A stretch of DNA of 64,000 nucleotides from Natronolimnohabitans sp. A-GB9 (GTDB taxonomy: Archaea > Halobacteriota > Halobacteria > Halobacteriales > Natrialbaceae), in assembly GCF_030848565.1 (NCBI RefSeq), contig NZ_JAVDDV010000001.1, forward strand, positions 248,001 to 312,000. Direction: 5' to 3'. Position 1 is the stretch's first letter; each line of letters begins with the position of its first letter. Positions 9,599-59,822 of this stretch are shown here, one piece after another. Made by a program: the position numbers and the translations under genes. Under the pieces are notes generated by a model. That model did not search any database and was not told the origin of the DNA. It worked only from the letters and a program-made list of their open reading frames with translations.

Positions 9599-9630
9599 CG
9601 CGTTTTGCGTGTGCCGCACGCTCGATTCAG

Positions 9631-9772
9631 ACGGACTACTGTACGTCGGTACCGGCGCAACCGTGACCCGGGCTGCGGTTGCGCCGGGAAATCGGTACAG
9701 CAATCCGTATCAGACGGTCTGTACCGACGCCCTCGCGAACCGACGGGTCACTGACTGCTGTCCGGCAGTATA
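9631..9772. repeat. Composite intergenic repeat: third hairpin form plus a piece of the 109-base element
   Basis: At 9631-9710 the arms ACGGACTACTGTAC and GGTACAGCAATCCGTAT enclose a perfect 11-base stem, CCGGCGCAACC (9652-9662) with GGTTGCGCCGG (9677-9687). The bases to 9772 (CTCGCGAACCGACGG, ACTGACTGCTGTCCGGCAGTAT) match the end of the 109-base element. The same two modules lie side by side at 18767-18942. The site lies between convergent genes. Confidence 0.65.
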
Positions 9773-16201: not shown

Positions 16202-16282
16202 ATACGGACTGCTGTAACTATTTACCGCCGATCGCCGACCCCGTCCTGGCGATCGGCGGTAATCGACTACAGTAGACCGTAT
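16202..16282. repeat. Intergenic hairpin element, form A
   Basis: An 81-base element with terminal inverted repeats ATACGGACTGCTGT (16202-16215) and ACAGTAGACCGTAT (16269-16282), matching at 12 of 14 positions. A central stem of 15 base pairs (TTACCGCCGATCGCC, 16222-16236, with its complement at 16248-16262) has an 11-base loop. The same layout recurs at 27559, 43352, 56041 and 59475. It lies between the divergent kinase and GAPDH genes. Confidence 0.8.
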
Positions 16283-18766: not shown

Positions 18767-18875
18767 ATACTGTCAGACAGCAGTCAGTGAGCCGTCGGTC
18801 GCGAACGCGCGGCCGTCACCGTCGGGACGGCCGCAGTCGCGCGACCGATCGTCGAATCGTGCTGTCCAACGGTAT
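18767..18875. repeat. 109-base MITE-like element, form B, copy 1
   Basis: Bounded by ATACTGTCAGACAGCA and TGCTGTCCAACGGTAT. Compared base by base with the reverse complement of 38041-38149, it differs at about 4 of 109 positions. The centre (GGCCGTCACCGTCGGGACGGCC) is itself palindromic, so the whole can fold on itself. No coding frame. It lies between pgk and the convergent rpl12. Confidence 0.85.
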
Positions 18876-23363: not shown

Positions 23364-24377
23364 ATGAGTGCGCGATCGCTCTATTTTACGGCCCCGCGGA
23401 CGGTCGCCGTCAGATCCCGTCCCGTTCCGGAGCCCGGGCCAGCCGAGGTCCGCGTTCGAGCGACGGCATCGGCGATCAGCGCCGGCACTGAGGGGTTGAT
23501 CTACCGCGGTGAGGCCCCCAAGGAGCTCCCGGCCGACGAGGAACTCGAGACGGTCGACGGCGATCTCTCCTTTCCGCTCCAGTACGGCTACGCCGCGGTC
23601 GGCGAGGTCACCGCTGTCGGAGACGACGTCGACACGGCGTGGCGTGGCCGGACCGTCTTCGCGTACAACGGCCACGAGAGTCACTTTCTGGCCCGTCCGG
23701 AGACCCTGCTGACTGTTCCCGACGGCGTCTCGCCGCGAGCGGCGACGCTCTTTGCCAATCTCGAGACGGCTGTCACCTTCCTGCTCGACGGCGAACCGCT
23801 GCTGGGCGAGCACGCGGCCGTCTTCGGCCAGGGGACCGTCGGTCTGTTGACGACGGCGCTGCTCGCCGAGAGTCCCCTCGAGACGCTTGTCACGCTCGAA
23901 CCGTACGCCAACCGACGGGAGCGCTCGCGGGCGTTTGGCGCCGACCGGGTGCTTGACCCCGACGACTGTTCGATCCCCGACGCCGTCGAGGGAGCTGCCG
24001 GCGGGCGAGCCGATCTGACCTACGAACTCTCTGGCGATCCCGACGCCCTCGACGACGCCATCGCGGCGACCGGCTTCGACGGTCGCGTCCTCGTGGGCTC
24101 GTGGTACGGGACGAAGCCGGCGACACTCGACCTCGGCGGACGCTTTCACCGCGATCGGATCGAGGTCCGGAGTAGTCAAGTGAGCACGATCGATCCCCGC
24201 CTCTCCGGTCGCTGGTCTCGCAAGCGGCGACACGAACTCACCTGGGACTGGCTCGAGCGCCTCGAGGTCGCCTCGCTCGTCACCCACGAGATTCCACTCG
24301 AGGACGCCGGCAACGCCTACGAGATGCTCGAGAACCGGCCGGGCGAGGCGATTCAGGTGGTGTTGACCTACGACTGA
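23364..24377 (+). CDS. Medium-chain dehydrogenase/reductase, BchC-like, without zinc ligands
   Basis: A 337-residue MDR-fold oxidoreductase. The N-terminal GroES-like domain has SAISAGTEGLIYRGEAP and LQYGYAAVGEVTAVGDD; the Rossmann motif is FGQGTVGLLTT (about residue 155). Where zinc alcohol dehydrogenases have catalytic Cys/His there is AGTEG, so catalytic zinc is not expected. Similarity is to the BchC/threonine-dehydrogenase-like branch. It probably oxidises or reduces a sugar or lipid hydroxyl in a pathway with its neighbours. Its stop codon is the first three bases of an intergenic repeat at 24375. Confidence 0.85.
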   Translation: MSARSLYFTAPRTVAVRSRPVPEPGPAEVRVRATASAISAGTEGLIYRGEAPKELPADEELETVDGDLSFPLQYGYAAVGEVTAVGDDVDTAWRGRTVFAYNGHESHFLARPETLLTVPDGVSPRAATLFANLETAVTFLLDGEPLLGEHAAVFGQGTVGLLTTALLAESPLETLVTLEPYANRRERSRAFGADRVLDPDDCSIPDAVEGAAGGRADLTYELSGDPDALDDAIAATGFDGRVLVGSWYGTKPATLDLGGRFHRDRIEVRSSQVSTIDPRLSGRWSRKRRHELTWDWLERLEVASLVTHEIPLEDAGNAYEMLENRPGEAIQVVLTYD

Positions 24378-24402
24378 TACGGACTGCTGTCCGACAGTAT
24401 CA
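24375..24402. repeat. Minimal copy of the intergenic element: two termini back to back
   Basis: TGATACGGACTGCTGT joined directly to CCGACAGTATCA, with no centre. The first TGA is the stop codon of the reductase gene. It is the shortest copy in the window and joins the two terminus types seen in the longer forms. Confidence 0.7.
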
Positions 24403-27539: not shown

Positions 27540-27631
27540 ACTGCTGTCCGACAGTATCATACGTTCTACTGTCGTCACGTACCGCCGATCGCCAGGGCGG
27601 GGTCGGCGATCGGCGGGACAGCAGTCCGTAT
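27540..27631. repeat. Intergenic hairpin element, form A, with adjoining terminus
   Basis: The element proper is 27559-27631: ATACGTTCTACTGT, a perfect 12-base-pair stem (CCGCCGATCGCC at 27582-27593 with its complement at 27605-27616), and ACAGCAGTCCGTAT. Its loop is the reverse complement of that at 16202, so the copy is inverted. An extra terminus, TGCTGTCCGACAGTAT, precedes it at 27542-27557. The final T is the first base of the cutA stop codon. Confidence 0.8.
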
Positions 27632-27933
27632 CACTCGACGGACTTCGCTCGCCACTCGGCGAACGACTCGAGGACGTGGCTCTCGTCGAAGCGTTCGATA
27701 CACGGGACGTCGTATGGGTGGAGTTCGGTGACGCGGTCGACGAGGTCGTCGTAAGCGTCGTCGGTCGTCTTCGCGAGCAGGACGGCCTCGTCGTCGTGGT
27801 GGATCTCGCCCTCCCAGCGGTACGTCGAGGTCGTCGACAGCCGGTTGACACAGGCCGCGAGTCGCTCGTCGACGAGCGCTTCGGCGATTCCGTCGGCGTC
27901 TTCCGGCGGTGCCGTGATGTAGACGGTCGGCAT
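27631..27933 (-). CDS. cutA: CutA1 family protein
   Basis: A 100-residue ferredoxin-like trimer-forming protein of the CutA divalent-cation tolerance family. It contains MPTVYITAPPED, LAACVNRLSTTSTYRWEGEI and ELHPYDVPCIERFD, all at the usual positions and with normal length. The exact function is unsettled in all organisms; a link to copper tolerance was proposed in bacteria. The TGA stop coincides with the end of an intergenic repeat. Confidence 0.93.
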   Translation of the reverse strand: MPTVYITAPPEDADGIAEALVDERLAACVNRLSTTSTYRWEGEIHHDDEAVLLAKTTDDAYDDLVDRVTELHPYDVPCIERFDESHVLESFAEWRAKSVE

Positions 27934-28327: not shown

Positions 28328-28652
28328 TACCCGATATGGGAACTGGACGCATATAACATTATTCTTGTAGCCCAATTTCTGGCCCACTTTTGTGTATCAC
28401 TATCGTAAATTCAAAACTCCAGTTGCAAAACGAAGTGGTAGCGGGACAGTAGTCCGTATCAGAACTGATCGTCGTCGTCCCCGAACTGGCGTCTCGCGTC
28501 GGCGGCCGTCGTTCGACCGAACACGAGGCCCGCAGTTTCGATCGACTGGAGTCGTCCCGCCAGCGGCGATTTGTACCACGCGATCAGCATCCACACGACC
28601 GACGTCGCCAGCAATCCGATCGCAGAGAACGTCATTCCGAGCGTGTGAAGTA

Positions 28653-32112: not shown

Positions 32113-32253
32113 ATTCTTATCGGGAGTTCGTAACGCTGTACACGGCGCTTATCGTCGGCGAATCCGAACGGGTATCGACCCGAAGCGGAACGTCGACCCG
32201 ATTCGAACGGCGAGAGAGTGGCGATCAGCGGGACATTCGCACAGCAGTCCGTA

Positions 32254-32700
32254 TCAGTCGGTGACGACGACCGTCCCGATCATGCCGCCGTTGACGTGAG
32301 GCTCACAGATATAGGTGTACTCACCGGGCACCTCGAAGGTGTGTTCGTACGTCTCACGGACGTCGATTTTGCCGCCCTGGTACGTGTGCCAGGCATCGAT
32401 AGCGGTCTCTTCGTCGTCGTATCCGCCGGAAGCGAAGTAGTCGGCACCCTCCGGCAGGCTGCTTTCACGGGCCGTTACCGTATGGAGGGCACCGCTCGTG
32501 TTCTTCCAGACTACGGTCTCGCCGACGGTCGCCTCGTACTCGGCGGGAAGGAACTCGTTGCGGGACATCCCGATGTCACACTCGTCGCCACTGCAGGGTT
32601 CGCCGTCGTCGTCGGTGAAGGTACCCATGACGGTCGAACAGCCCGCCAGCCCGGCGGTAGCAGCGGAGCCGACGGCGGCGAGATAGACGCGCCGATTCAT
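32254..32700 (-). CDS. Halocyanin (blue copper lipoprotein)
   Basis: A 148-residue exported cupredoxin. The signal VYLAAVGSAATAGLAGC ends in a lipobox Cys (about residue 21), so it is membrane-anchored on the outside. Copper ligands are His in NTSGALHTVTA and Cys/His/Met in YICEPHVNGGMIG. It probably carries electrons between respiratory complexes. An insertion (about residues 88-115) separates the two ligand regions. The start is at MNRRVYLAAV. The TGA stop lies in a decayed form-A repeat. Confidence 0.9.
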   Translation of the reverse strand: MNRRVYLAAVGSAATAGLAGCSTVMGTFTDDDGEPCSGDECDIGMSRNEFLPAEYEATVGETVVWKNTSGALHTVTARESSLPEGADYFASGGYDDEETAIDAWHTYQGGKIDVRETYEHTFEVPGEYTYICEPHVNGGMIGTVVVTD

Positions 32701-38040: not shown

Positions 38041-38149
38041 ATACTGTTGGACAGCACGATTCGACGATCGGTCGCGCGACTGCGGCCGTCCCGACGGTGA
38101 CGGCCGCGCGTTCGCGACCGACCGCGCACTGACTGCTGTCCGACAGTAT
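38041..38149. repeat. 109-base MITE-like element, form B, copy 2
   Basis: Bounded by ATACTGTTGGACAGCA and TGCTGTCCGACAGTAT (15 of 16 bases match as inverted repeats). It is about 96% identical to the inverted copy at 18767-18875 and has exactly the same length. Its last T starts the stop codon of the downstream ribbon-helix-helix gene. Confidence 0.85.
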
Positions 38150-39267
38150 CAGTCACGAAATCGCCAGACGCGTGCCCCTTCACCGCCCTCGACCGCCTCG
38201 ACCTGTTTGAGCCCCGTTTTGACGCATTCCCACCAGCTATCGGCTGTCTCGTAGCCGGCGGGACACTCGCCATAGAGCGCGTCGACGAAATCGGACCGGC
38301 GTGCACGTCCCTCGTCCCGGAGGTACGCCAGCGCACGGCCGACGGCGTGGCGTCGCTTCTCGAGTGTCTCGGCCGATCGGCCCGGAATCGACAGCTCGTC
38401 GAGGTCGGCGATATCCTCGCCAGGACGGACGCCGCCGCCGGTCAGTCGGGTCGAGGACGCGTACTCGAGGCCGGTCTGGACGTCCCTGTCGAGTCGCTTT
38501 CGTGTCGTGGCGACCGCACGCCGGGAGAGTTCGTCGAGTCGCTCGGCTTCGACGCTCCCGAGGACGCCGGCGTCCTCGTGGACCGGGTCCTCCGGGATCC
38601 GCGCGACGCGTTCCGGGGAGATCGGGGCCGGTCTGCCCGACGCCGACGGGGACCGGTCCACCGACTCCGGACCCGAATCCACCGCGGTTCGTTTCGCGTC
38701 GTCTTCGTTCGAACGGTCACCGTCACCTGTCTCCGTCCCGTCTACCGACGCCGTCCGTTCGTTCTCGTCCGGTCGGATTCGTGAGTCCGGCCCCTGTCGA
38801 ACCGTTCTCGGTGCGCCACGGACCTCGAGTTCCGGCTCGCGGTCCGCCGTCGCCTCGGCCGTGCCGTCCCGTCGCGGTCGTCTCTCCCGCGACAGTGGCT
38901 GGTCGTCGCCGCTCCGTGCTCGACTCGAGTTGGAATCCGTTCCGGTCGACTCGCCGCGTACCGTCCGCTCGTCGGATTCGGCAGGCTCGTCGGACGCCCG
39001 TGTCTCAGCCCTCCCGTCGCCGGCGACCTCGACCGTCTCTTCGAGGACCGCGACTCGTTTTTCGAGTCGTGCGATGCGCTCGCCGTGGTCGGTAAGCACC
39101 CGATCCTGCTTTACGTCGTGATCGGGCTCGCGCTCGGCTTCGATCGAGCCACGGTTCGCGATGATCCACCGGACGTACGCCCCCCGGCTCTCGAAGCCGA
39201 ACAGTTCCCGCTCGGCCTCGAGTGCGTCGACGGTTTCGTCCTCGAGTTCGATGGTGAGGGCCCGCAT
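38149..39267 (-). CDS. Ribbon-helix-helix protein with disordered middle and winged-helix-like C-terminus
   Basis: A 372-residue protein. The N-terminus ALTIELEDETVDALEAERE with YVRWIIANRGSI fits a ribbon-helix-helix DNA-binding fold. A short coiled coil follows (ERIARLEKRVAVLEETVEVA), then about 150 residues of Arg/Ser/Asp/Glu-rich, probably disordered sequence. The end (TLEKRRHAVGRALAYLRDEG, RRSDFVDALYGECPAGYE, DSWWECVKTGLKQVEAVEGG) resembles a winged helix. It is a likely regulator of unknown target. The start is the Met of MRALTIELE. Confidence 0.8.
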   Translation of the reverse strand: MRALTIELEDETVDALEAERELFGFESRGAYVRWIIANRGSIEAEREPDHDVKQDRVLTDHGERIARLEKRVAVLEETVEVAGDGRAETRASDEPAESDERTVRGESTGTDSNSSRARSGDDQPLSRERRPRRDGTAEATADREPELEVRGAPRTVRQGPDSRIRPDENERTASVDGTETGDGDRSNEDDAKRTAVDSGPESVDRSPSASGRPAPISPERVARIPEDPVHEDAGVLGSVEAERLDELSRRAVATTRKRLDRDVQTGLEYASSTRLTGGGVRPGEDIADLDELSIPGRSAETLEKRRHAVGRALAYLRDEGRARRSDFVDALYGECPAGYETADSWWECVKTGLKQVEAVEGGEGARVWRFRD

Positions 39268-39377
39268 CGTCTCCGGATAGCCGATCATCCTATAAAAGTC
39301 GTTGTCAGACGCGACGATGACGGGTCGACAGAACGAACGCCGAAACGCGAACGGAAAGAGGAGCTCGATTCGAGCGT

Positions 39378-43334: not shown

Positions 43335-43432
43335 TACTGTCTGACAGTATGATACGGTCTCCTGTCGTCACTGACCGCCGATCGCCGACCCCGTACTGGC
43401 GATCGGCGGGACATAGTTACAGCAGTCCGTAT
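43334..43432. repeat. Intergenic hairpin element, form A, with adjoining palindrome
   Basis: At 43334-43350 the palindrome ATACTGTC-T-GACAGTAT abuts an 81-base form-A element (43352-43432): ATACGGTCTCCTGT, a perfect 12-base-pair stem (CCGCCGATCGCC, 43375-43386, with 43398-43409) and ACAGCAGTCCGTAT. The order (short palindrome then form A) is the same at 27540. Confidence 0.8.
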
Positions 43433-47661: not shown

Positions 47662-47844
47662 GTGATCGAAGTGTCCATCGATGCCGACGATACGACGGAT
47701 AGCAGCGAGCCGCGTAGTATCCCCGAGGGCACCGCGACGGTCGAATCTTACGAGACGGAAGACGGTGTCGTCTTCTACGACGCCGAGAATCCGCTGGCGT
47801 GGGTCGAGACCTCTCGAACACTTACGCTTGCGGAGCTCGCCTGA
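47662..47844 (+). CDS. Small conserved haloarchaeal acidic protein
   Basis: A 60-residue protein ending VESYETEDGVVFYDAENPLA then WVETSRTLTLAELA, a conserved haloarchaeal small-protein family of unknown function. GTG at 47662 (or GTG at 47671) is the start; CATATAATG about 30 bases upstream is the TATA box. It is divergent from polB. The TGA stop is part of TGATACGG, a decayed repeat terminus. Confidence 0.7.
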   Translation: MIEVSIDADDTTDSSEPRSIPEGTATVESYETEDGVVFYDAENPLAWVETSRTLTLAELA

Positions 47845-49109: not shown

Positions 49110-49163
49110 TCGGCACCCGGACCCAGCTGCGGTAAGCCGGGACTGACCGACAGTGGGCCGTAT
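49110..49163. repeat. Decayed intergenic repeat (form C-like) at the rad50 stop
   Basis: CCCGGACCCAGCTGCGG, AAGCCGGGACTGACCGACAG and GGGCCGTATCA follow the form-C copy at 9660-9713 with several changes. The terminal GTATCA supplies the rad50 stop codon. Confidence 0.45.
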
Positions 49164-51868
49164 CAGTCGGACGCGAGCAGCTCGGACTCGGGCGGACGCC
49201 CCCGCTCGAGGCGCGACCGGTTCGAGGTGGCGTCTTTTTCGACACGGACGAGCGAATCGGCCGCCCCGACGAGCTCTTCGTCGTGGCTGACGACGACGAT
49301 CTGTTCGACGCCCAAGTCGCGCATGGATTCGACCAGCGAGACGAGTTGGGTGACGTGACCTGAGTCCAGGAAGACGGTCGGTTCGTCCAGGATCAGCGGC
49401 GGCATCGGCGCCGCGCCTTCGACGCCCTCCGCGAGCAGCCGGTAGATCGCACACCGCAGGCTGAGGTTGAACAGCGCCCGCTCGCCGCCGGAGAGCTGTT
49501 CTGGCTCGAGGGGTTCACCGTCCTTCTGATAGACCGTCAGCCGGTACTCGCCGTCGAGGTCGATTCCGGCGTAGGAATCGTTCTGGTAGACCAACTCGAA
49601 CGTCTCGTTGAGCAACCGCTCTAGGGTCTCGACGTTACGCTGGCGCAGCTCCGACCGAAGGTCGGCGTACGTCGCCTGTAACGTCTCGGCCTCGTCGTAC
49701 AGTGATTCGAGTCGCTCACACCGCTTCTCGACGGCGTCGAGACGGTCGCGAAGCTCCTCGAGTTCCTCGAGTTCCCGCTCGGCGGCACCGATCGCGTTCT
49801 GGAGATTCGTCCGTTTCTCCTCGAGGTCGGCGAGTTTGTCGTCGACCTTCTCGAGGTACTGCTCGGCGTTTTGTTTGTCTTCGCGGGCGGTCTCGACGCG
49901 GTCCTCGTCGAACTCCGACTCGAGGTCGCGCTTGCGCTCGCGCTTGTTCGAGAGGGTTTCGCGGCGTTCGTCGTTCATCGTCTGCCAGTCCCGGCGGCGT
50001 TCGCGCCGGGTCTCGATCTCGGCGGCGAGGGCCTCGCGTTCGTCGTCGATCTCGGCGATCCGGCGGAGCGACTCCAGTGTGTCCCTGATATCGCCGCGTT
50101 CGCCGTTGATCTCACCGAGTTCGGCTCGCTTCGTCGCGACCGACTCCTCGAGGTCGGCGGCTTCGGTCCGTTTCGCTTCGGCGTCGTTCTCGTACTCCGT
50201 GGCGTCCTCGAGCAGTCGATCGCGCTGTTCCCGTCGATCAGCGAGCGTCTCGCGTTTCTCCGCGAGCAGCTGCTCGACGTTGTCGCGGTTCTCCTCGAGC
50301 CGGTCGACCCGTCGTTCGGCCTCGCGTAGCTCCTCGGCGCGGTCGATCCGATCGTCGACGTCGTCGCGCTCGGCCTCGAGGGCGTCGAGTCGTTCCTCGA
50401 GGGCGGCCAGTTCCTCACGTTTCTCGTCTAAGACGTTGACGTGGGGCGAGTCCTCGACGGACTGACCGCACTCGGGACACTTCCCTTCCTCGAGCAACTG
50501 CTCGCCCTCCTCGATCGCGTTCTCGACGGTTCGGATGTCGGCGGTGACGTCGCCGATCTCGTCGGTCAACGCCTCGCGCTCGGCCTCGAGCGCCTCGAGA
50601 TGGCTCTCCGTGTCGCCGAAGTCGATCGGTGCGTCCTCGAACTGTTCACGCGCGGCGTCGATCTCCGCCTCGAGATCGTCGAGTTTTGCCTCCCGGTCTT
50701 CGATCGCCGCTTCGTCGGCCTCGAGTTTCGTCTCGAGGTCGCCGGCCTCCTCGCGGGCCTGCTCGGCTTTGGCCTCGAGGTCGTCGGCCTCCTCGCGCAG
50801 CCGTTCGATCTCACCGTTGGTTTCGGTGATCGCGACGCGAACCGCCTCTAACTCGTCACGGAGTTCCTCGTCGCGTGTCTCGAGTTCGTCGATCCGCGTC
50901 CCGACTGCGTCTGCGTCCGCATCCGCGTCCGCGTCGCCGCCTTCGGTACTCCTGAGATCGACCTTGGCGAGTAGGTCTTCGCGTTCGGCCGCGAGCTCCG
51001 TGCGTCGCTCCTCGAGGTCGCGGATCTCGGTTTTCGCGTCCTCGCGTTTGTCTTCGGTCTCGGAGATCTTCTCGCGGAGGTCGTCGATCTCCGCTCCGAG
51101 CCGGTCGATCTCCTCGCGGGTCTCCTCGTGGCGCTCGAGGACGTCTTCGGCGGTCTCGAGCGTGTTGCGGGCCTGCTCGCGTTGTGTCTCGAAGTGCTCG
51201 ATCTCCTCGTCGACGTCGGCTCGACGGGACTCGAGGCCGTTCAACCGCTCGTGGAGGTCCTTCGTCTCCTTCTTTTCGACCTGCTGGCGAACGTTCTCGA
51301 GGACCTCTCGCTGGCCGTCGAGGACCGTCTTGACGCCGAGACGGGCATCGCTTGCACGTTCGCGGTACTCCTCGAGCGCGCCGAGTTGTAGGAGGTCGTC
51401 GATCATGTCCTGGCGGTCACTCGGCGAGGCGTGGATGAGCTTGTTGACCTCGCCTTGACGGACGTAGGCGCAGTTGACGAACGCCTCGGCGTCCATTCGC
51501 AGGAGTTCGGTCACCTCGCGGCGGACGTCACGGGCCCCCTCGATCGTTTCGGTCGGCGTCTCGAGGACGCATTTGGTCGTCGACGCCCGATCGCCCCGGA
51601 GTTTGAGGTGGCGCTCGACGCTGTAGTCGCGGCCGTCGTGGGTAAAGTGGAGTTCGACTTCGGCCTCCTCCTCGCCGGTCGTGATCACGTCGTCTAACGT
51701 GCGGTCGTCGAGCGCTTTCGAGCCGTACAGCGCGAAGAAGACCGCTTCGAGCAGCGTCGACTTCCCGCTGCCGTTAACGCCGTGGACGACGGTGACGCCA
51801 CGCTCGAGTCCGAGGTCGGCCTCGCCATAGCACTTGAAGTTCAGCAGGCGAATGCGGTCGACCTTCAT
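49163..51868 (-). CDS. rad50: DNA double-strand break repair ATPase Rad50
   Basis: A 901-residue SMC-like ATPase. Walker A is VHGVNGSGKSTLLEAVFFAL (about residues 30-42). A long antiparallel coiled coil carries the zinc hook KCPECGQ (about 464-468). The C-terminal half has the signature QLSGGERALFNLSL and Walker B PLILDEPTVFLD. It dimerises through the hook, tethers DNA ends and drives Mre11. The start overlaps the end of mre11 by four bases, so they are co-translated. Its stop lies in a repeat terminus. Confidence 0.96.
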   Translation of the reverse strand: MKVDRIRLLNFKCYGEADLGLERGVTVVHGVNGSGKSTLLEAVFFALYGSKALDDRTLDDVITTGEEEAEVELHFTHDGRDYSVERHLKLRGDRASTTKCVLETPTETIEGARDVRREVTELLRMDAEAFVNCAYVRQGEVNKLIHASPSDRQDMIDDLLQLGALEEYRERASDARLGVKTVLDGQREVLENVRQQVEKKETKDLHERLNGLESRRADVDEEIEHFETQREQARNTLETAEDVLERHEETREEIDRLGAEIDDLREKISETEDKREDAKTEIRDLEERRTELAAEREDLLAKVDLRSTEGGDADADADADAVGTRIDELETRDEELRDELEAVRVAITETNGEIERLREEADDLEAKAEQAREEAGDLETKLEADEAAIEDREAKLDDLEAEIDAAREQFEDAPIDFGDTESHLEALEAEREALTDEIGDVTADIRTVENAIEEGEQLLEEGKCPECGQSVEDSPHVNVLDEKREELAALEERLDALEAERDDVDDRIDRAEELREAERRVDRLEENRDNVEQLLAEKRETLADRREQRDRLLEDATEYENDAEAKRTEAADLEESVATKRAELGEINGERGDIRDTLESLRRIAEIDDEREALAAEIETRRERRRDWQTMNDERRETLSNKRERKRDLESEFDEDRVETAREDKQNAEQYLEKVDDKLADLEEKRTNLQNAIGAAERELEELEELRDRLDAVEKRCERLESLYDEAETLQATYADLRSELRQRNVETLERLLNETFELVYQNDSYAGIDLDGEYRLTVYQKDGEPLEPEQLSGGERALFNLSLRCAIYRLLAEGVEGAAPMPPLILDEPTVFLDSGHVTQLVSLVESMRDLGVEQIVVVSHDEELVGAADSLVRVEKDATSNRSRLERGRPPESELLASD

Positions 51869-53283: not shown

Positions 53284-53481
53284 TCAGCGATCGAGCGACG
53301 TCGATCCGACCGCATCGTTGTACCCCTCGAGGACGAATTTGCCGATCCAGAGGAGTGCGACGACGACGCCGACGAGGACGACGAGCGCCTGTGCGATGCC
53401 CTCGAGGGCGCCTGCTGCGGACACCGTTACGCCGAGAACGACGAGCACCCCGATCGTATCGCGAAGCGTCCAATCGGTCAT
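53284..53481 (-). CDS. Small membrane protein (65 residues)
   Basis: MTDWTLRDTIGVLVVLGVTV followed by AQALVVLVGVVVALLWIGKF gives two hydrophobic helices and a short polar tail (EGYNDAVGSTSLDR). It resembles conserved small haloarchaeal membrane proteins. Function unknown. The TGA stop lies in GTATCA, the hexamer shared with repeat termini, although no full element is seen. Confidence 0.68.
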   Translation of the reverse strand: MTDWTLRDTIGVLVVLGVTVSAAGALEGIAQALVVLVGVVVALLWIGKFVLEGYNDAVGSTSLDR

Positions 53482-56040: not shown

Positions 56041-56120
56041 CTACGGTCTACTGTCGTCAATTCCCGCCGATCATCGACCCCGTGCTGACGATTGACGGTA
56101 ACTCGTTACAGCAGTCCGTC
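56041..56120. repeat. Decayed form-A intergenic element
   Basis: CTACGGTCTACTGTCGTCA, the stem arms CCGCCGATCATC and GACGATTGACGG (several mismatches) around GACCCCGTGCT, then ACAGCAGTCCGTCA. The layout equals the copy at 43352. It lies between two divergent genes; the remaining part of the gap (55849-56040) is AT-rich with nothing recognisable. Confidence 0.6.
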
Positions 56121-59474: not shown

Positions 59475-59556
59475 CGGACGGTCTCCTGTCGTCACGTCTC
59501 GCCGATCGCCGACCCCACCCTGGCGATCGGCGGGAGATCGGGACGGCAGTCCGTAT
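59475..59556. repeat. Intergenic hairpin element, form A
   Basis: ACGGTCTCCTGTCGTCACG, a perfect 11-base-pair stem (CGCCGATCGCC, 59500-59510, with 59522-59532) and GGCAGTCCGTAT. The left terminus is partly decayed. The last T begins the pcc1 stop codon. It lies between pcc1 and the DUF2243 gene. Confidence 0.75.
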
Positions 59557-59822
59557 CAGGACGACTCGAGCGTTCGGTCGCCGATATCGGCTGCCTGTTC
59601 GGCGACGTCGACCAGCGTAAACCAGGTGTTCAGTGCCGCTCGCAGTGCGATCACGTCGGCGGCGTCGATCTCGACGCGAACGGTCGAACCCTCACAGTCG
59701 ATAGTCGTCTGGGAGCGTTCGTCGTCGATTTCGCCGATCTCGCGGGCGACGCTGTCGGCGACGAGACGTGCGCGAGACGGCGTCTCGTAGTCGAACTCGA
59801 GGGTCGCGTCGTGAGAAGACAC
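59556..59822 (-). CDS. pcc1: KEOPS complex subunit Pcc1
   Basis: An 88-residue dimerisation subunit of KEOPS, which makes threonylcarbamoyl-adenosine in tRNA. It has SRARLVADSVAREIGEIDDE, STVRVEIDAADVIALRAALN and WFTLVDVAEQAADI. The start is GTG (59820-59822), three bases after the rpoP stop codon. The L37Ae-RpoP-Pcc1 order is widely conserved in archaea and often continues into prefoldin beta, which here is displaced by about 2 kb. Confidence 0.92.
   Translation of the reverse strand: MSSHDATLEFDYETPSRARLVADSVAREIGEIDDERSQTTIDCEGSTVRVEIDAADVIALRAALNTWFTLVDVAEQAADIGDRTLESS

Follow-up and report, generated by a model that had tools for sequence, protein, structure and literature searches.

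MITE families of a Natrialbaceae genome whose target-site duplication coincides with stop codons

Nine genes in the 64,000-nucleotide stretch of DNA analyzed here (the window) end in TGA followed by TAC. The initial annotation read this hexamer as the end of a dispersed intergenic element, which raises the question of whether the element supplies these stop codons, acts as a signal behind them or stands in some other relation to the gene ends. The window lies within the 4.30-Mb genome of a haloarchaeon of the Natrialbaceae (G000, 72 contigs), of which 1.19 Mb (28%) formed the main sample. The account that we favor, with a probability of roughly 0.88, is that MITE families insert with a TNA duplication at GAC-TSA-GTC, that the stop codon is the duplicated target and that gene ends are permissive sites. 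The observations beneath it are the element boundaries, the 3-bp direct duplications, the target motif, the position of copies on stop codons and the conservation of gene ends in relatives without the element.

Elements at gene ends in the window

TGATAC is present at all nine reported places, each of which is the stop codon of an open frame. Two of the stops (24375 and 47842) are on the plus strand and the other seven on the minus strand, where the number denotes the first plus-strand base of the complementary TCA. Six of the nine genes have Pfam matches (24375, 27631, 32254, 47842, 49163, and 59556), and an element arm adjoins seven of the stops (24375, 27631, 28459, 32254, 38149, 49163, and 59556) and is not clearly present at 47842 and 53284. 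Full copies with intact duplications are found at two of the genes; full elements and the hybrid described below are assigned no strand. The first is a family A element of 71 bp (27560–27630) with a TCA/TCA duplication, the right copy of which (27631–27633, minus strand) is the TGA stop of cutA1 (27631–27933, minus strand; CutA1 Pfam match). The second is a family B element of 107 bp (38042–38148), also with a TCA/TCA duplication, and its right copy at 38149–38151 is the stop of the minus-strand gene 38149–39288, a 379-aa ORF without a Pfam match. A further family A element of 79 bp (59477–59555) adjoins the TCA at 59556–59558 that is the stop of pcc1 (minus strand; Pcc1 Pfam match), and its distal flank has decayed to TCG.

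At the remaining stops only parts of elements, or none, are seen. The TGA stop at 24375–24377 (plus strand) of a Zn-dehydrogenase gene (23364–24377; Pfam match) adjoins a 22-bp hybrid mini-element, TACGGACTGCTGTCCGACAGTA (24378–24399), in which an A arm overlaps a B arm. Its flanks, TGA on the left and TCA on the right, do not match, so that it has no intact duplication, and the 28-mer 24375–24402 (TGA...TCA) is this atypical hybrid plus its unmatched flanks. A single A arm, TACGGACTACTGT (28446–28458, minus strand), is located directly behind the TGA at 28459–28461 of a weak 58-aa ORF; half an A element, consisting of an arm and CCCGCTGATCGCC (32219–32253, minus strand), directly behind the TGA at 32254–32256 of a halocyanin-like gene (Pfam match); and a single A-like arm, TACGGCCCACTGT (49150–49162, minus strand), behind the TGA at 49163–49165 of a Rad50-like gene (Pfam match). 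The TGA at 47842–47844 (plus strand), the stop of a DUF7331 gene (Pfam match), is followed by TAC with no clear arm and is probably a coincidence or a remnant. The TGA at 53284–53286 (minus strand), which ends a weak ORF of 65–96 aa, is followed by TAC with no arm and is probably a coincidence.

The window holds other copies as well. Three family A elements are positioned away from a stop, at 9630–9709 (second core type; TCA/TCA), 16203–16281 (79 bp; TCA/TCA), and 43353–43431 (79 bp; TGA/TGA). A family B element of 107 bp with a TCA/TCA duplication (18768–18874) is 96% complementary to the copy at 38042, and a 79-bp family A element at 56042–56120 has decayed flanks.

Element anatomy and the target-site duplication

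The elements are related, non-coding MITE families with hundreds of copies in this genome. The dispersed intergenic element proposed from the window is borne out. TGATACKGNCNNNNGT has 200 exact matches genome-wide, compared with a single match for its reversed control, and TACTGTCSGACAGNA has 172. Family A elements are about 67–84 bp long, with a size class of 79–80 bp, have the terminal inverted repeat (TIR) TACGGWCTNCTGT and fall into two core types. Family B elements have the TIR TACTGYCSGACAG and are about 107 bp (B) or 78 bp (B') long; a few 22-bp hybrids complete the size classes with paired arms. Full elements span about 67–108 bp, well within 500 bp, and contain no transposase gene. 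One or the other TIR is present at both ends of 111 copies, with arms recurring at fixed spacings (79, 107, and 78 bp). Divergence is 3–5% in stems and arms compared with 20–32% in spacers and loop; as the 111 copies were selected by their arms, arm conservation is partly by construction, but this does not apply to the outer half of the inner stem, which played no part in the selection.

Several features of individual copies were noted. In family A elements such as those at 16203–16281 and 43353–43431 the two ends, TACGGACTGCTGT and TACGGTCTCCTGT, can be told apart, and the central loop GACCCCGTCCT occurs in both orientations relative to them, as though copies differed by an inversion of the inner hairpin. 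The A and B arms of the 22-bp hybrids overlap in ACTGCTGT, in the window (24378–24399) and elsewhere in G000 (C1:493118, C12:211009, C4:53191, and C4:14887). Several hybrids directly adjoin a stop codon, and the TNA triplets on either side match in two of them, so that even an element this small may have moved as such, or may have arisen by deletion. Other palindromic repeats (CGTCCCCAGC...GCTGGGGACG, and some with ATGACCAGGAG arms) appear to be inserted inside elements as nested small repeats of different families (G000 C1:28824–28985, C2:21032–21213, and C12:236083–236203).

When the arms were searched without TGA, conservation extended outward as T-S-A, with G and C sharing the S position, a hint that TGA lies outside the element. 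Perfect 3-bp direct repeats flank 80 of the 111 full copies (TGA/TGA 39, TCA/TCA 33, TTA/TTA 5, TAA/TAA 2, and AGT/AGT 1), and 79 of the 80 are TNA; two copies have inverted triplets. The TGA triplet therefore represents a target-site duplication (3 bp, TNA), and the element itself starts with TAC. The initial annotation had taken TGATAC for the terminus of the element on both sides, with TGA at both outer ends when read inward, so that insertion in either orientation would provide a stop. The more frequent occurrence of TGA (138) than TCA (69) before A arms would agree with that proposal, but the ratio of 80 direct to 2 inverted pairs refutes it, TTA/TTA and TAA/TAA pairs exist, one end of an intact copy is TGA and the other TCA, and the stop is present in relatives that have no element; we give it practically no weight. 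A surplus of TGA before the arms is to be expected, since the copy that serves as a stop is retained and its partner decays. With the flanks of intact copies joined, a palindromic target around GAC-TSA-GTC emerges, and the 43 copies away from stops show it too (TSA is preceded by C and followed by G in 55% each, with a GAC/GTC core).

Gene ends in other species, at 60–85% protein identity, are in line with duplication of an existing stop. Orthologues of cutA1 without the element end in ...LE then TGA in G013 and ...VE then TAG in G005, those of the halocyanin-like gene in ...VTE then TGA in G001, G002, and G013, and those of the Zn-dehydrogenase gene, at the same codon as in the window, in ...YE then TGA in G014 and ...YD then TAG in G005. 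The orthologues of the genes at 24375, 27631, and 32254 thus stop at the same position or a few codons away, which contradicts both the proposal that insertion supplies the stop and the suspicion that the affected proteins are shortened. The CutA1, Pcc1, DUF7331, and plastocyanin-fold domains reach the end of their Pfam profiles, and the completeness of these small domains indicates that the window genes concerned are not truncated.

Most of the relatives that carry the element belong to the Natrialbaceae. A 400-kb portion of G014, a member of another genus, yielded 39 pairs, of which 25 are flanked by direct triplets (each of them TGA or TCA) and one by inverse triplets; TAC follows 14 of 192 TGA stops, and 5 of the 25 copies (20%) are on stops against 10% expected, a weaker excess (p = 0.1). 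G015 carries a 167-bp family with the end TACTGTCGGAC in near-identical copies with TGA or TCA duplications (L216–L228; also L202 and L210). This near-identity is a sign of recent movement, and these loci are a good place to search for an active transposase. In G017, the TGA of a short ORF is directly followed by a 78-bp element whose ends are TACTGCCGGAC (L271, 1380–1460), and a second 78-bp copy follows about 770 bp downstream, beyond a cupin gene.

A transposase gene with these ends was not found at the PF01609 loci of six genomes (G000, G001, G013, G014, G015, and G017), which have other ends, nor between such ends when more than 2 Mb were searched by end structure, and PF13586 is absent from 25 genomes. 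Pairs of ends 0.5–3.5 kb apart were considered as candidate autonomous elements and rejected, as they enclose ordinary genes, for example between the two separate 78-bp MITEs of G017. Both ends of contig C21 of G000 (L184 and L185) stop inside what seems to be the same transposase fragment, indicating that the assembly is broken by insertion sequences and could lack an autonomous copy. Phage records gave no match, and among plasmids four haloarchaeal records were found. The element end sequences were not found in the relevant literature searched, which otherwise yielded only general MITE papers.

Preference for stop codons and its possible causes

In the 1.19-Mb sample, where gene calls are approximate because they come from a home-made codon model, TAC comes next after 109 of 617 predicted TGA stops (17.7%), 24 of 265 TAA stops and 9 of 250 TAG stops (3.6%), compared with about 1% expected by our estimate from base composition alone. 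The excess over chance postulated for the window is real and large, and the frequency of TGATAC at stops departs from what codon context would give. The contrast between TGA and TAG indicates that the type of stop obeys the TNA rule. Exactly on a predicted stop are 36 of the 79 copies with a TNA duplication, whereas 10.8% would be expected from a uniform choice among non-coding TNA sites and 19.3% after weighting by a motif trained only on copies not at stops (p = 1e-7; these models treat sites as independent). Target sequence alone, taken over all non-coding DNA, is thus insufficient to account for the pattern. When only the stop and the next 60 nt are considered, the split is 36:19 (36/55) compared with a motif expectation of 57%, with no significant excess (p = 0.12), and the residual excess is relative to promoter and far intergenic DNA. 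Convergent gaps hold 43 copies in 35 kb, tandem gaps 48 in 99 kb, and divergent gaps 20 in 59 kb. Although coding sequence contains 73% of TNA sites, a predicted CDS is overlapped by only 4 of the 111 copies. Both ends of the element face stops (21 versus 13 among scored A copies). No significant preference for an Asp codon at stops was seen (10 of 101 genes ending in GAC have the element compared with 35 of 516).

A simple sequence of events would produce this pattern. An element would insert at TNA, nearly always TGA or TCA, within the palindromic GAC-TSA-GTC and duplicate 3 bp. Where the target TGA is a stop codon, the copy on the gene side would remain the stop, the element would follow at TAC and a second TGA would stand behind it, leaving the protein intact since the stop itself is the duplicated target. 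Gene ends would offer the right sequence at a permissive site, while insertions into coding and promoter DNA would be lost, and the excess of TGATAC at stops may well have come about because harmless insertions survive. As the searches gave no transposase with these ends, we infer mobilization in trans, by a DDE transposase whose cut-and-paste reaction would, judging by the type of duplication, be IS5/IS1031-like. A motif together with survival at harmless sites is the simplest reading of the stop pattern.

The transposition machinery might instead seek out gene 3' ends actively, through termination structures or the transcription complex and beyond any DNA motif. The sharp spike at distance zero, 36 of 79 against 19% over all non-coding DNA, and the density of copies in convergent gaps are as such targeting would have it. 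However, the 36:19 split just past stops fits the motif, the palindromic target holds away from genes too, few of the G014 copies are at stops, and the depletion of divergent gaps is as selection against promoter damage would give, so that we consider active targeting unlikely. Of the 3'-end targeting suggested by the initial annotation, the real excess exactly at gene ends stands, whereas targeting beyond sequence preference is not needed to explain it.

The other function suggested there, that of a transcription terminator or RNA 3'-end processing signal kept behind stops for its usefulness, appears somewhat less probable still. The long nested palindromes have a stable predicted RNA fold (−41.8 kcal/mol, z −4.4; family B −72.3, z −6.9) and copies are concentrated in 3' regions, but any palindrome would give such a fold, the 27 A copies that were aligned have T-runs of 3 at most, a double compensatory change is seen in none of 55 changed pair cells, there is no Rfam match, half of the copies are away from stops and either end of the element can face the stop. 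Derivation from IS200/IS605 elements, as palindromic repeats of the PATE or REP-like type moved by a single-strand transposase, is very improbable. Strong palindromes, small size, intergenic position and an inner stem more conserved than the spacers would suit it, and PATEs are common in another haloarchaeon, but PATEs are without terminal inverted repeats or target duplications (PMC3119063), and both are present here.

Under the favored account of a TNA target motif with survival at harmless sites, the apparent gene-end signal is stop-codon-preserving insertion, by which an element can directly follow a gene and leave the protein unharmed. In the sampled 28% of the genome, TAC comes directly after about one in six predicted TGA stops, and the elements should therefore be masked in analyses of stop context, 3'UTRs and terminators in Natrialbaceae. 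They also provide a system in which to ask whether mobile elements have target motifs tuned to harmless sites. A bolder idea, which we hold to be doubtful, is that the palindromic target (GAC-TGA-GTC) evolved to match the commonest gene end of the host, Asp GAC plus TGA, as a built-in safe-site strategy. Were it true, insertion would regenerate the stop, with an element beside a sizeable share of the TGA-ended genes of a host with acidic proteins.

Comparison with known mobile elements

Among described systems, the IS5 family, in its IS1031 subgroup, uses a TNA target with a 3-bp direct repeat, as exemplified by ISLrh at TGA (PMC12016507). The elements described here share the 3-bp TNA duplication with TGA among the targets. 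In contrast, the ISLrh ends (GAACCTGTCTAG...) are unlike TACGGWCTNCTGT or TACTGYCSGACAG, and no IS1031-type transposase was found between such ends in the sequence examined. Because no transposase with these ends was found, the elements can be said to work like IS5/IS1031 and PIF/Harbinger elements, and membership is not claimed. PIF, like these elements, has a palindromic target. PIF/Harbinger elements and plant Tourist MITEs make a 3-bp TTA/TAA duplication and depend on an IS5-related transposase (PMC2213677). The 3-bp duplication and MITEs moved in trans are points of likeness, whereas the elements of this archaeon differ in their ends and in a target that is mainly TSA rather than TWA (72 versus 7).

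Classes defined by other properties were rejected. T-runs of 3 at most, zero double changes and the lack of an Rfam match speak against intrinsic terminators or structured RNAs. In Haloquadratum (PMC3119063), PATEs have neither inverted repeats nor duplications, SMRs have no duplications, and HqIRS MITEs have both inverted repeats and duplications. By these definitions the present elements are not PATEs, as they carry TIRs and a target duplication, and not SMRs, as they carry a target duplication. Numerous transposase-free repeats in a haloarchaeon are common to both cases; a coincidence with stop codons is not described in the passages of PMC3119063 consulted. The elements resemble the prokaryotic MITEs reviewed in PMC10969869 in being short, non-coding, intergenic and high in copy number, with TIRs and decaying target duplications. 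They differ in that no parental IS was found and in being GC-rich with nested palindromes, and in nearly half of the intact copies the duplications coincide with stop codons. Together they form a new and abundant group of MITEs, with a target duplication that can double as the stop codon of a gene.
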